A DNA stretch of 64,000 bases from Candidatus Fermentibacteraceae bacterium (GTDB taxonomy: Bacteria > Fermentibacterota > Fermentibacteria > Fermentibacterales > JCC-6). Under the pieces are notes generated by a model that saw nothing but the letters and a program-made list of their open reading frames with translations, did no database searches and was not told where the DNA came from. The stretch lies in assembly GCA_016744855.1 (NCBI GenBank), contig JADGDO010000001.1:124001-188000 (forward strand), written 5' to 3'. Each line of letters begins with the position of its first letter. Position 1 is the stretch's first letter. Position numbers and translations under genes: made by a program. Positions 52,582 to 56,846 of this stretch are shown piece after piece.

Positions 52582-53571
52582 TCAGTTTGAGGGAACAATA
52601 GCAATTATCCCCTGAGGTCCCTCTCCACCCGCTTCAAGGGAATCAATGACGGTTAAGGATACTTCATCAATCATGTACACCTTGTTCGCAGTAAAGGAGC
52701 TGGCGTAAAGGGTGCTTTCGCATACAGCTAAATTAGTGGGAGCAATTGGCAAATCTACTTCGGTGAACTCACCGGACTCTTTGAATCTGATGATTCCACC
52801 ACTTCCCCAGCCATCGGGGCTGATGTACCAATTTCCTCTTCTGATGGCCTCTCCCGGTGCTCCTCCGCATTCAATCACCGCTTCAATCGATATACTGGAG
52901 GGGTCTATGATTGTGATCTTCCCATCATCGGTATAGGTCGTTGAGTAGCAGTGAAGCATTCCGGAAGGTTGCAATTTAAGCCAGTGGGTATTCACTCCTG
53001 TATCTATCCAGCTAATCTCAGTACCGGTGGATGGATCAATCACAGAAACACCTCCAGGAGATTGTGTATCAGGATAACTGGAATAACTTACAAAGATTTT
53101 GCCTTGGCTGTATTCAATACCGCTGGGATTGGTTCTTGAGTCCAGGAAAGCTGTAATCTCAGCTGTTTCAGTGTTTACTACAGCAATCCTTTCTTCCAGA
53201 AGTAATGCCACATAAGCGGTTGTGTTATCTAAAACAAAACTGTAGGGATTACTTCCCTGTGGGAGAAATATCGTCCCTTCCGTTGTACCTGTTTCCTCTC
53301 CGGAGAAAAACCGCAACTCGGCTGATGCGGAAGAAAGAACTGCAAATTTAGAGCCCCCTGTGTGAAGGATGTGATTGGGGACTTCACCTGTTACCCAGGC
53401 AATTTGAATAAGAGAATCCGATTCCGGGAAGTAAGCATCTGCATTACCGGAAAGACCGTTGAACCAGACAACAAAGGGACCCTTCGGAGTGTTACCTTCA
53501 ACTGGACCTATGGCATCTCTGCATGAGACCGTGAGAAGCAGAATAACCGCAAAAAAGATAAATCTATTCAT
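52582..53571 (-). CDS. btuG: BtuG-like surface beta-propeller lipoprotein
   Basis: 329 residues. The N-terminus 'MNRFIFFAVILLLTVSCRD' has a lipobox. The body shows propeller repeats ('AYVALLLEERIAVVNTETAE', 'GKIFVSYSSYPDTQSPGG', 'VSVIDPSTGTEISWID', 'KVYMIDEVSLTVIDSLEAGG'), as in YncE-type seven-bladed proteins. Bacteroides BtuG is a surface lipoprotein of this fold that captures B12 and passes it to BtuB. Here the gene follows a BtuB-like receptor one base after its stop, both under a cobalamin riboswitch. The BtuG assignment is therefore an inference from fold and context. Confidence 0.7.
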   Translation of the reverse strand: MNRFIFFAVILLLTVSCRDAIGPVEGNTPKGPFVVWFNGLSGNADAYFPESDSLIQIAWVTGEVPNHILHTGGSKFAVLSSASAELRFFSGEETGTTEGTIFLPQGSNPYSFVLDNTTAYVALLLEERIAVVNTETAEITAFLDSRTNPSGIEYSQGKIFVSYSSYPDTQSPGGVSVIDPSTGTEISWIDTGVNTHWLKLQPSGMLHCYSTTYTDDGKITIIDPSSISIEAVIECGGAPGEAIRRGNWYISPDGWGSGGIIRFKESGEFTEVDLPIAPTNLAVCESTLYASSFTANKVYMIDEVSLTVIDSLEAGGEGPQGIIAIVPSN

Positions 53572-53572
53572 T

Positions 53573-55516
53573 CTAATCTCCTGTGTATTCAGCTGTTATA
53601 CGGAGAGTTCTTCCTCTGCCGTTGTAACCATTTGACTCGCTGTATTCGGTATCAAGGATGTTCTCCAATGCAATTTCCAGGGAAACACCAGCTGCTATAT
53701 CCCTTTCTATGGATGCGCCTGCGATCCAGTATTCTTTTAAAAAAATTGTTTGGGTTCTGTTTGTGAACCTCTTTGCCACTCCCCTCGCTGAAAGACTGGC
53801 TAGTAAACTTCCAGGAAGCTCTGCAAAAGTTGAGATACCCCAGGTATACTCTGGTCTGTAAGGAATTATCATTCCCTCTCTCGGGGTGTTTTGTGTTTCA
53901 TCCGTTGCAAGATTCCATGTGAATGTGCTCTGAATGGAAAAACTGCCGGAAGTGAGCCCTGTTGATGTTTCCAGACCTCTTGAGAAAGCTGAAGAAAGGT
54001 TAGAAGGGGACCAGAGACCCGATTCATCGGGAAGCCAGAGAATCATGTTGGAGGTTGTTGTAGCAAACGCACAGACTCTACCGTTGAAAAAACCGGTGTT
54101 CCAATCAATTCCTGCTTCCCCCCCGCTGGTTCTCTCACTTTTCAGATATGGGTTTCCTGTTGCGAATGCGTCTGTTGGCCAGTAGAGGTCATTTACAGTG
54201 GGAGAACGATGATCTGAGTATGCCGAGAGCTCTGCTGTAAAAATACTCTCTTTGAAGTCTCTGAAAACAGTTGCCCGACCAGAGAAGTGGATATCGCTGA
54301 AAGAGTCGATCTTGCAGCCTAAAGAGGCACGAAACATGGACCTTTCACAGTTTGCATGAAGAGAACCGAAAGAAACTGAACGATCAGAAGTTGAAGTGCT
54401 TTCAAGCCATGTGGTGTTAAATCCTCCTCTTAGAGCAAGTGGCCCCTTCCATAGAAGTGATGTGCGCAAAGAAAGATCTTTGTGTGTGTCATCAACTGCA
54501 GAAGGTTCACTCTGATCAAAGGACATAAAGCTGGCTCCAGCACTGATATCAGCCTCGAGTTGGTCTCCGTAGATAGTACTCCAACCCTCTATCTGCCCCT
54601 GTTTTCTCTCTCCGTCACTGGGTACAGACCAGTCGGGCCCTTCTGTTTCTCCAACAGCCCAGGAACCCAGAAAACCTGCACTGAAGAACCTGTAATTCTT
54701 CGTAGTAAGGAGAGTTGAGCTGTATCCCTCTGTTCCATTGTTACCTATATTCCGCCTCAGGGAAAATCCTGTTTCTTTGAATTTGGCTGCAATGTAAGAA
54801 GCGCCGTCTGATAACCCTGAGACTCTGATGGACAAAGGTTGAGATGAGAGCGGAGGAAGGTAATTCACAGCGCCGGAACTTCCGGTGCCATTGCCGCCCG
54901 GAGCAGCTCCTCCCCTGGCGATCTCTACTGAGGAAAACACTGCTGGGTCAAAAAGTCCAGTGAGCATACCATCGCGCTGAGAGACTACAGAAATTCCGTC
55001 GATCATGTAGTCTACCTGACCGGAGTCTCCCCCTCTGAGAGAAATGGAGACAATCGGCATAGACCCTCCATATTCCCTTACAGTAACGCCAGAGACTCTC
55101 CCGTTGAGGGAACTCATCCCTCCTGTAGAGAGTTTTGATAGGGTGTTTTCATCAAGCGTTTCAGTCGATGGAATTTGTCCTGCGAGTGATCCTCGGGTTG
55201 CGGTAACGGTAATTGTCTCTCCTGAATTGATTACTGTGCTCTGAAGAAGTACAATATTGTCATTCTCAGGCTTCAAACCCTTCCAGTCTTCAAATCCAGT
55301 GAAATGAACCGTTAGAGAATCAGGCTCAGAACCCGAATACTGGTAGAAACCAGCGGTGTCAGTAAATCCGAACCATGAAGCCCCGTCGCCAATCCAGGCA
55401 CCGGCAATCGGTTCACCGCCAGCTTGAACAAAAAAGCCAGATGAAACTGCGGAAAGAAGAATGAGATAGAGCAAAAAATCCCGCCTTTCACGGAATGAGT
55501 GAAAGTCGCGGGACAT
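53573..55516 (-). CDS. btuB: TonB-dependent cobalamin receptor (BtuB-like)
   Basis: About 647 residues. The signal region ends '...SSGFFVQA'. A carboxypeptidase-like 'GAWIGDGASWFGFTDTAGFY' domain (about 30-85) precedes the plug, which has 'ETITVTATRGS' (TonB box-like), 'LNGRVSGVTVREYGGSMPIV', 'SLRGGDSGQVDYMIDGISVV' and 'EIARGGAAPGGNGTGSSGAV'. The barrel ends in alternating strands and 'GRTLRITAEYTGD'. The start is uncertain: ATG 55516 is used, ATG 55534 is in frame, and neither has a clear Shine-Dalgarno. The first 40 bases of this frame also form a terminator hairpin, so a TTG just after it (55476 region) is a further candidate. Confidence 0.85.
   Translation of the reverse strand: MSRDFHSFRERRDFLLYLILLSAVSSGFFVQAGGEPIAGAWIGDGASWFGFTDTAGFYQYSGSEPDSLTVHFTGFEDWKGLKPENDNIVLLQSTVINSGETITVTATRGSLAGQIPSTETLDENTLSKLSTGGMSSLNGRVSGVTVREYGGSMPIVSISLRGGDSGQVDYMIDGISVVSQRDGMLTGLFDPAVFSSVEIARGGAAPGGNGTGSSGAVNYLPPLSSQPLSIRVSGLSDGASYIAAKFKETGFSLRRNIGNNGTEGYSSTLLTTKNYRFFSAGFLGSWAVGETEGPDWSVPSDGERKQGQIEGWSTIYGDQLEADISAGASFMSFDQSEPSAVDDTHKDLSLRTSLLWKGPLALRGGFNTTWLESTSTSDRSVSFGSLHANCERSMFRASLGCKIDSFSDIHFSGRATVFRDFKESIFTAELSAYSDHRSPTVNDLYWPTDAFATGNPYLKSERTSGGEAGIDWNTGFFNGRVCAFATTTSNMILWLPDESGLWSPSNLSSAFSRGLETSTGLTSGSFSIQSTFTWNLATDETQNTPREGMIIPYRPEYTWGISTFAELPGSLLASLSARGVAKRFTNRTQTIFLKEYWIAGASIERDIAAGVSLEIALENILDTEYSESNGYNGRGRTLRITAEYTGD
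55473..55513 (-). terminator. Intrinsic terminator overlapping the 5' end of btuB (riboswitch expression platform)
   Basis: On the minus strand TCCCGC-GA-CTTTCAC, loop TCATTCC, GTGAAAG-GCGGGA form a stem of 13 bp with a two-base bulge, then six T. It lies about 45 bases after the end of the cobalamin riboswitch, so it is likely the switch-controlled terminator. It includes the codons after ATG 55516. Confidence 0.7.
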
Positions 55517-55554
55517 CGTTAAGCATAGCTGCATTTATGCGATACAGATCAGCA

Positions 55555-55660
55555 TGATGCGCGGCACAGTGTCTGACTCCCGGAAGTGTTCCAGTTACAG
55601 TGGCGCTACCGTGACGGAATTTCACCGCACTTCCTGTGCCCGCGACTCGGGTAATATAGT
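55555..55660 (-). promoter_or_regulatory. Cobalamin riboswitch
   Basis: Read on the minus strand, the element has the B12-box core 'GCCACTGT', preceded by 'GGTGAAATTCCGTCACGGT' and followed after a hairpin by 'GGGAGTCAGACAC'. Outer pairing of GCGGGCACAG with CTGTGCCGC closes it (a bulge in the stem). These are the conserved parts of the AdoCbl aptamer. It precedes btuB-btuG, so B12 should repress both genes. Confidence 0.92.
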
Positions 55661-55682
55661 CGATCTAACCCCGTGAGACATT

Positions 55683-55728: not shown

Positions 55729-56214
55729 TCAGTTGATAACAGAGCTGACAATACTCTCTGTCTGGTCTGTGGCCATAGCCATAACACTCTGAACTTTACC
55801 ACCGAATACGCTGCTCATGAGACCTGTATTCATTCTTGACACTATGACTCTACCGTCAGAAGTCTCGTAAACAGCGACTCTGCATGGCATCATTGACGAT
55901 ACTATTCTGTTTTCGTCTCCGGTGAGGATGTCACCAGCGAGATCTACATTACAAAGTTCGATAACAGTGACTTTTTCAACATCCCAGCCCCCCTGGGCAA
56001 CTGAATTGTGAATTTCGTGCGTTGCAGGTACTTTCCATCCTATTTCTTCAGCATTTGCAATAATGGTCGCTACTGTTTCATCGTGTGACAAATTGCTTTC
56101 TGATTCTGTTATCATTGCATTGGGAGCGCGCAGAAAGCCGAATACTGCCATAAAAACAGCCCCCATAAGCATCCCGGCAATAGCTGTAAAAATATAATTC
56201 TTGTTCATTTTCAT
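55729..56214 (-). CDS. Membrane-anchored DUF302 protein
   Basis: 161 residues. One N-terminal membrane anchor (about 6-28, 'YIFTAIAGMLMGAVFMAVFG') and a DUF302 domain: 'DETVATIIANAEEIGWKVPA', 'VTVIELCNVDLAGDIL' and 'MPCRVAVYETSDGRVIVSRM'. The conserved Met-Pro-Cys-Arg around 108-111 is typical of the family, which is tied to redox or heavy-metal/sulfur contexts. It overlaps the regulator gene by one base, so the two are one operon. Confidence 0.85.
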   Translation of the reverse strand: MKMNKNYIFTAIAGMLMGAVFMAVFGFLRAPNAMITESESNLSHDETVATIIANAEEIGWKVPATHEIHNSVAQGGWDVEKVTVIELCNVDLAGDILTGDENRIVSSMMPCRVAVYETSDGRVIVSRMNTGLMSSVFGGKVQSVMAMATDQTESIVSSVIN

Positions 56215-56846
56215 TATTCTTTTCCTTTTACTAGTGGTTTTTTTGTAGCCATTCTGGCTGAAACACTGTCTTCAAGGCGCCATGCATTGAAACCTTTGTC
56301 TTTGAGTATTTTAACGGCCTTGTCTGCTATATCGCAGTATTTATCCCTGCAGTAGGCGATAACAGAAGCGCCTTCGGGGATGGATTTTATATTCTTTTCA
56401 AAATTTTTGAAAGGAATACACACCGCTCCGGGGATGTGTGCCTTGTTGTATTCCTCCGTAGGACGAACATCGATAACAATGGAGTTTACCGGTAGCAGAG
56501 ATTCGTCTAATGAGATTCTGTCGGCCCTCATCTTCTGGAGAGAAAGAGCGAGTTCCGGGAATATCAATTCCGAGAGTTGTTTCATCTGATCTAAAAAGGT
56601 TGCAATTTCCTTACCGGCAATAGAATAAATGACGAATCTCCCCTGTTTCTCAGAGACGACAAACCAGTCCTTCTTTAATTTTTGAAGATGATGTGAAACA
56701 GTTCTTACCGGAAGGCCGGTTACTCTGGAGAGAGCTTCGACAGATCGGTCGGCCTGACATAAGGCATCGACAATCCGGATTCTTTCCGGGGATTCAACAA
56801 GTTTACCTATTCGGGACAGGCAATCGTAGAGACGGGATCGTTCCAT
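56214..56846 (-). CDS. ArsR-family regulator fused to rhodanese domain
   Basis: 210 residues. Winged helix at about 15-95 with 'DALCQADRSVEALSRVTGLP' and 'VRTVSHHLQKLKKDWFVVSE'. The rhodanese domain (about 115-205) has 'VIDVRPTEEYNKAHIPGAVC' and active-site loop 'AYCRDKYCDIADKA'. Such fusions sense reactive sulfur or sulfane species and pair with sulfur-handling genes. The catalytic Cys follows Tyr, as in active rhodaneses. ATG 56846 has GGAGAAGAT upstream. A short ATTCC/GGAAT palindrome near 56871-56890 might be its operator. Confidence 0.85.
   Translation of the reverse strand: MERSRLYDCLSRIGKLVESPERIRIVDALCQADRSVEALSRVTGLPVRTVSHHLQKLKKDWFVVSEKQGRFVIYSIAGKEIATFLDQMKQLSELIFPELALSLQKMRADRISLDESLLPVNSIVIDVRPTEEYNKAHIPGAVCIPFKNFEKNIKSIPEGASVIAYCRDKYCDIADKAVKILKDKGFNAWRLEDSVSARMATKKPLVKGKE

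Follow-up and report, generated by a model that had tools for sequence, protein, structure and literature searches.

A cobalamin riboswitch–receptor–propeller cassette in Fermentibacterota resembling BtuBG of Bacteroides

Is the capture of vitamin B12 by a propeller lipoprotein seated on a TonB-dependent receptor confined to Bacteroidetes? BtuG of Bacteroides, a lipoprotein of the cell surface, has a very high affinity for corrinoids and forms a cap over the receptor BtuB (PMC6143338, PMC10404256). Wexler et al. (2018), who examined 313 gut genomes, described BtuG as exclusive to Bacteroidetes (PMC6143338), and two papers state that it occurs in that group alone or is missing from other users of BtuB (PMC6143338, PMC12751083); the literature searched contained nothing on cobalamin in Fermentibacter, nor on BtuG outside Bacteroidetes. 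The question is raised by a 64,000-nucleotide (nt) stretch of contig JADGDO010000001.1 (positions 124,001 to 188,000), hereafter the window, which harbors a cobalamin riboswitch, a TonB-dependent receptor gene and a lipoprotein propeller gene in a row. The host is a member of Candidatus Sabulitectum (Fermentibacterota). It is quite probable that the locus serves cobalamin uptake across the outer membrane under repression by B12, with a BtuB-type receptor and a BtuG-type lipoprotein lid. Its role in B12 uptake is well supported, BtuG-like capture is predicted, and as far as can be computed the cassette would work like BtuBG. Its features are as follows:

52582 to 55662, minus strand: B12 cassette; order 5' to 3', adenosylcobalamin (AdoCbl) riboswitch, TonB-dependent receptor, lipoprotein propeller
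55520 to 55662, minus strand: AdoCbl/cobalamin riboswitch aptamer (RF01482), from cmscan above the gathering score
55639 to 55646, minus strand: candidate antiterminator 5' strand GTCGCGGG, within the aptamer, pairing with 55505 to 55512, from covariation
55473 to 55513, minus strand: terminator-like hairpin TCCCGC..GCGGGA plus T6, with a Shine-Dalgarno (SD)-like AAAGG in the 3' arm (expression platform), from folding energy and conservation
53573 to 55474, minus strand: btuB-like TonB-dependent receptor, 633 amino acids (aa), probable start TTG 55474, from Pfam Plug and barrel and from PDB sequence and structure matches
52582 to 53571, minus strand: BtuG-like lipoprotein, predicted seven-bladed beta-propeller, 329 aa, from AlphaFold2 (AF2), Foldseek and lipobox Cys17

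The propeller, the receptor and their locus

The 329-aa protein carries the lipoprotein signal MNRFIFFAVILLLTVSC, with a lipobox cysteine (Cys17) that was invariant in 21/21 orthologues. The propeller repeat TIGR02276 was significant in it (E 4e-9), and the Pfam family YNCE stayed below its cut-off. Tertiary structure prediction with AF2 from 19 orthologues gave a confident model (predicted local distance difference test, pLDDT, 90.7; predicted template modelling score, pTM, 0.87) with 28 strands, corresponding to seven four-stranded blades. When this model was compared by Foldseek with 350,542 PDB chains, 16 of the 17 top matches were BtuG1, BtuG2 or BtuG3 (E 8.8e-16 to 9e-14, template modelling (TM) score 0.70–0.76), and the remaining one was a YVTN surface protein. 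Propellers from other families (AztD) ranked next, at 2e-12. A mismatch with the BtuG fold had been named beforehand as refuting the original reading of the locus as a BtuG-like capture cassette outside Bacteroides, and the comparison favored the BtuG fold. BtuG1 was also matched in the PDB sequence search, with E 0.016 for the single sequence and 1e-12 with the family profile.

Conservation was distributed unevenly over the two faces of the propeller, the strand letters being assigned by us from the YVTN pattern. The D-A and B-C loops showed a conservation of 0.71 against 0.60 for the A-B and C-D loops (p = 0.002), with 18 strongly conserved non-glycine positions in the former and 3 in the latter. 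W36, Y110, Y213, W255 and F293 were among the conserved residues in or adjoining the loops of one face, as would be expected if the modeled face bound a ligand or a partner. The cobalamin-binding pocket of BtuG2 consists of Trp194, Tyr239, Trp272, Tyr316 and Tyr335 together with hydrogen-bonding residues.

The receptor, taken as the longest open reading frame (53573–55534, minus strand), contained the Pfam domains Plug and TonB_dep_Rec above cut-off, and its best PDB sequence matches were Bacteroides BtuB (8bmx_C, 8p97, 8p98; E 1e-10). The AF2 model of the receptor was of moderate confidence (pLDDT 73.8); all 15 of its best PDB matches were BtuB of E. coli and Bacteroides, including 2gsk and 1nqe, ahead of heme and siderophore receptors. 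The receptor and propeller models, predicted separately, thereby name the two halves of one known complex, BtuB and BtuG. The equivalog TIGR01779 was not reached by the receptor (56.4 versus a cut-off of 599.7 bits), a comparison in which Bacteroides BtuB was not scored as a yardstick. The carboxypeptidase-regulatory-like extension originally noted in the receptor (PF13620) was found in 10 of the 14 members of its orthologue alignment (best E 3.8e-4) and gave no score in the window protein itself.

The receptor stop codon and the lipoprotein gene are separated by a single base (53572). The same order of receptor and propeller, with a gap of 1–47 nt, was kept in 13/13 orthologous loci in which both genes could be placed, and hence the arrangement is not due to chance. 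The nearest named loci belong to Candidatus Sabulitectum, Aegiribacteria and other Candidatus Fermentibacteria. Within the window's family, 33 of 36 genomes had matches at E ≤ 1e-20, as did three of the five genomes of family f3. Two genera belonging to another family of the order have the genes arranged as glycosyltransferase, propeller, receptor, riboswitch and FAD-oxidoreductase, and the window is the same apart from two extra genes on the minus strand between the riboswitch and the oxidoreductase (55729–56846), coding for a DUF302 protein and an ArsR-rhodanese fusion. This one conserved place across the order points to vertical inheritance of the cassette within Fermentibacterota. The DUF302 and ArsR-rhodanese genes were absent from the corresponding place in loci L025 and L026. 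Apparent receptor–propeller fusions of 1026–1036 aa in genomes G039 and G040 were rejected as an artefact, the two being separate genes inside long open frames of GC-rich DNA.

Probable riboswitch control and the B12 economy of the host

The AdoCbl riboswitch RF01482 (Rfam clan CL00101) was matched by cmscan at 55520–55662 on the minus strand over its full length (model positions 1–149); the score of 56 bits exceeds the gathering cut-off of 50 (E 1.4e-7) and bears out the B12 riboswitch predicted ahead of a TonB receptor. Either RF01482 (in the genus) or RF00174 (in other genera) was found at the same place in all scanned complete orthologous loci except L041. Since the two families occupy one orthologous locus, the periphery of the aptamer seems to have been remodeled between genera, and the ligand preference of the RF01482-type and RF00174-type riboswitches may differ. 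Comparison of the window aptamer (55520–55662) with those of L044, L047, L049, L050 and L054 showed the compact RF01482 to score best in Sabulitectum and RF00174 in the other genera. At L041:4860-5140, the riboswitch fell below the Rfam cut-off, and an ATT is aligned to the conserved TTG of the receptor start.

Directly 3' of the aptamer, the sequence TCCCGCGACTTTCAC-TCATTCC-GTGAAAGGCGGGA-TTTTTT forms a terminator-like hairpin; the 40 nt holding it have a folding energy of −15.7 kcal/mol (z −3.26), and the hairpin is kept in 8 loci. The 5' arm of the hairpin, CCCGCGAC, and the strand GTCGCGGG on the 5' side of the aptamer are perfectly complementary. The resulting long-range helix of 8 pairs was paired in 98.4% of cells across the 8 loci of the genus, and slid versions of it in only 41–61%. 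Three of its pairs showed compensatory change on both sides, and the covariation score was reached by 0 of 500 shuffles. As this covarying helix shares the 5' strand of the aptamer, the ligand-free RNA can form an antiterminator, and closure of the aptamer would free the terminator. The expression platform is therefore probably able to switch. Shut-off of the operon by B12 is the established behavior of this riboswitch class, and by analogy B12 would turn the operon off here. When corrinoids are scarce, the aptamer 5' strand would pair with the 5' arm of the hairpin and the operon would be transcribed; when B12 is bound, the aptamer would close, the terminator-like hairpin would form and expression would stop.

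The layout of the leader also bears on the start of the receptor. ATG 55534 was rejected as it falls inside the aptamer. ATG 55516, just 5' of the terminator-like hairpin, was likewise rejected, and because a 1-nt deletion puts it out of frame in four relatives, TTG 55474 is the likely start. This TTG is conserved in 7/8 loci and has the SD-like AAAGG of the hairpin 3' arm at the usual distance. Apart from this correction of the receptor start, the original observation was confirmed, and its interpretation was supported.

The transporter genes btuF, btuC and btuD, said to be missing from the window and to be sought in the genome, were indeed found there: btuF, btuD and btuC are adjacent on contig 20 and constitute the one set in the genome (94.9% complete), and the FecCD gene on that contig is the only full copy. 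The methionine synthase gene metH lies in a methionine cluster that follows a second riboswitch operon. Neither of the biosynthetic genes cbiC and cobS was found in the window's genome, and of 32 genomes searched in the order 30 had no cobS; G038, one of the two with cobS, lacks the propeller. The absence of cbiC and cobS makes the organism look like a B12 auxotroph, which it likely is. BtuF and BtuCD, encoded on the other contig, would next import the vitamin, which the cell is presumably unable to make, for use by MetH.

The second cobalamin riboswitch of this genome (98.8 bits) heads an operon at L028:7742-9961 (G000:C96). One product is a secreted propeller of 414 aa in which a Por_Secre_tail domain was recognized (E 3e-8); another is a secreted protein of 267 aa for which no relative was found in Pfam or PDB. 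Both are conserved in two relatives (L036, L032), and a homologue of SprA, of type IX secretion, is present. Judged by its riboswitch, the operon seems to encode an additional, secreted group of corrinoid binders. Beside it, an S-adenosylmethionine (SAM)-I/IV riboswitch (L028:12220-12324) lies near the methionine cluster (HcyBio homocysteine enzyme, metF-like, metH; L028:10127-16148). A tandem pair of cyclic di-GMP (c-di-GMP)-I riboswitch aptamers was also seen at L028:1635-1812.

Cassettes outside the order and their relation to BtuG

The wider distribution of the cassette was surveyed in 385 genomes with 156 aa of BtuG1, taken from its PDB chain, as the query, giving 58 matches; 40 loci from outside Fermentibacterota, together with three from an earlier homologue search, were studied. 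The best one or two matches per genome were followed, and the counts are hence lower bounds. An RF00174 riboswitch, a receptor and a propeller on one strand within a few kilobases were found in at least 16 loci from at least 14 families outside the order:

Full three-part cassettes outside the order: L033, L034, L035, L093–L100, L102, L103, L105, L106, L120
Riboswitch and propeller, no receptor found (five loci): L101, L104, L107, L108, L129
Receptor and propeller, no riboswitch in view (two loci): L114, L119

In one of the 14 families (G094, L103), the propeller is a classical BtuG by PDB match (E 4.5e-18), and this family may belong to Bacteroidota. The anchors of the propellers, called by motif search and reading by eye, were of different types: a lipoprotein anchor in L093, L103, L105, L114, L119 and all Fermentibacterota, a C-terminal sorting motif in L035, L094, L095, L097, L098, L106 and L120, and dockerin-like ends in L034 and L099. 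B12 capture by a riboswitch–BtuB–propeller cassette is thus probably much wider than published, its presence in Fermentibacterota and 14 further families going beyond the Bacteroidetes-only statement for BtuG. The original prediction had extended the strategy to the Fibrobacteres–Chlorobi–Bacteroidetes (FCB) group; this is secure for Fermentibacterota, where the cassette occurs across the order, and the 14 other families are left unassigned to that group.

In the phylogenetic tree, the Fermentibacterota propellers formed one clade (support 100). This clade is nested in a larger group of 34 propellers that has weak support (81), and 33 members of the larger group sit at a B12 riboswitch or adjoin a BtuB-like receptor. 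On balance, we slightly favor the view that the cassette is old and widespread and that Bacteroidetes BtuG is one branch of it, the anchor having been swapped (lipid versus C-terminal sorting or dockerin-like domain) with the capture propeller kept. The origin of BtuG, which earlier discussion linked to crowding in the gut, would then not lie in an answer to gut competition, and it becomes answerable through wider sequence sampling.

Several observations weigh against the BtuBG-like reading of the cassette. The window lipoprotein scored 15.9 bits with the BtuG family DUF5074 (PF16819), under the cut-off of 27.2 bits (an orthologue in the genus, G010, passes with 28.1 bits), and its identity to BtuG in structural alignments is only 14–17%. 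The generic YVTN propeller 1l0q outscored BtuG in the profile-to-PDB sequence search and was the seventh structural match. Classical BtuG was not placed with support beside the Fermentibacterota propellers and falls elsewhere in the tree, weakly (73). The 21 orthologues share no lipoprotein export signal of the Bacteroidetes type behind the cysteine, and the structures were predicted as single chains, not as a complex. Because the DUF5074 cut-off was missed and corrinoid binding is only predicted, the protein is named BtuG-like and not BtuG. The low identity, the missed cut-off and the separate position of classical BtuG would also suit the independent recruitment of a generic YVTN propeller, in which case B12 capture by this fold would be convergent. 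This account is possible and is entertained tentatively, since it is opposed by the profile–profile alignment of the propeller to a classical-type BtuG set (307 columns, probability 99.7%), by the co-linear alignment of the cassette propellers across the whole propeller, and by the single clade of all B12-linked propellers, which fitted slightly better and was not rejected (approximately unbiased test, p-AU 0.63–0.65).

The side of the outer membrane on which the propeller resides is a further point. The residues after the cysteine vary (CRDxxGP, CNSPxEP, CSSP, CGSSTGP; CRDAIGP in the window), and most other genera have no acidic residue near it, so that surface exposure is a prediction. The lipoprotein could instead face the periplasm, receiving B12 from the receptor on that side and handing it to BtuF, with no role as a surface catcher. 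We consider this unlikely, as the fold matches surface BtuG, the export signal of BtuG2 is itself short (MKWD; PMC6143338), and in other families the propellers encoded in the same gene slot have, in place of a lipobox, C-terminal sorting or dockerin-like domains, which points to a location outside. From its fold, gene order and conservation, the BtuG-like lipoprotein would probably cover the receptor like a lid from the outer face of the outer membrane, bind corrinoids with its conserved face and pass them on to the receptor. It is very improbable that receptor and propeller serve another ligand (heme, a siderophore, or a cobalt or nickel chelate) with the riboswitch merely coupling them to cobalamin status: TonB-hemin (E 1.7e-16) did come slightly ahead of TonB-B12 (1.9e-15) among the NCBIfam matches, both far below their cut-offs, but the structural top 15 consists of BtuB, the single complete transporter is of btuFCD type, the cobalamin-class riboswitch is kept across genera, and there are the signs of B12 auxotrophy.

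Comparison with known systems places the cassette close to BtuB2G2 and BtuB3G3 of Bacteroides thetaiotaomicron (PMC6143338; Abellon-Ruiz 2023, PMC10404256), with which it shares a B12 riboswitch, a BtuB-type TonB receptor with best matches to BtuB, and an adjacent seven-bladed lipoprotein matching the BtuG fold. It differs from these in the low identity of the propeller, the position of its gene one base after btuB, the phylum, and the lack of a recognizable Bacteroidetes export signal, of neighboring btuFCD and of the other lipoprotein genes of those loci. All seven blades were modeled as four-stranded, whereas blade 6 of BtuG2 has two strands (PMC10404256). BtuGH (BtuG1) of B. thetaiotaomicron (8blw_B, 8ptd) is the nearest BtuG by sequence profile, but the window propeller is without the fused BtuH domain. 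Riboswitch control and receptor fold are held in common with btuB of E. coli, which has no capture lipoprotein (PMC6143338). The predicted BtuB-BtuF operon of Caldithrix abyssi behind an AdoCbl riboswitch similarly combines a riboswitch-controlled B12 receptor with a deep lineage and no de novo B12 synthesis; no propeller was described for it (PMC5317091). B12 capture at the cell surface hence becomes a general feature to test, with dozens of new candidate corrinoid-binding propellers in two anchoring modes.

Some further arrangements were seen among the surveyed loci. At L035:6011-12399, one riboswitch seemingly serves an energy-coupling factor (ECF)-transporter-S-like protein, two tandem TonB-dependent receptors and a propeller. 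Classical-type BtuG paralogues with one in-frame TGA were found in three related genomes (L136, L137, L138). A small membrane protein adjoining the propeller gene in two families (L103:4292-4951 and L034:4428-4955) carries a shared motif, RLMPHPWNFVP or RLLPHAPNFAP, and is possibly part of the B12 locus.

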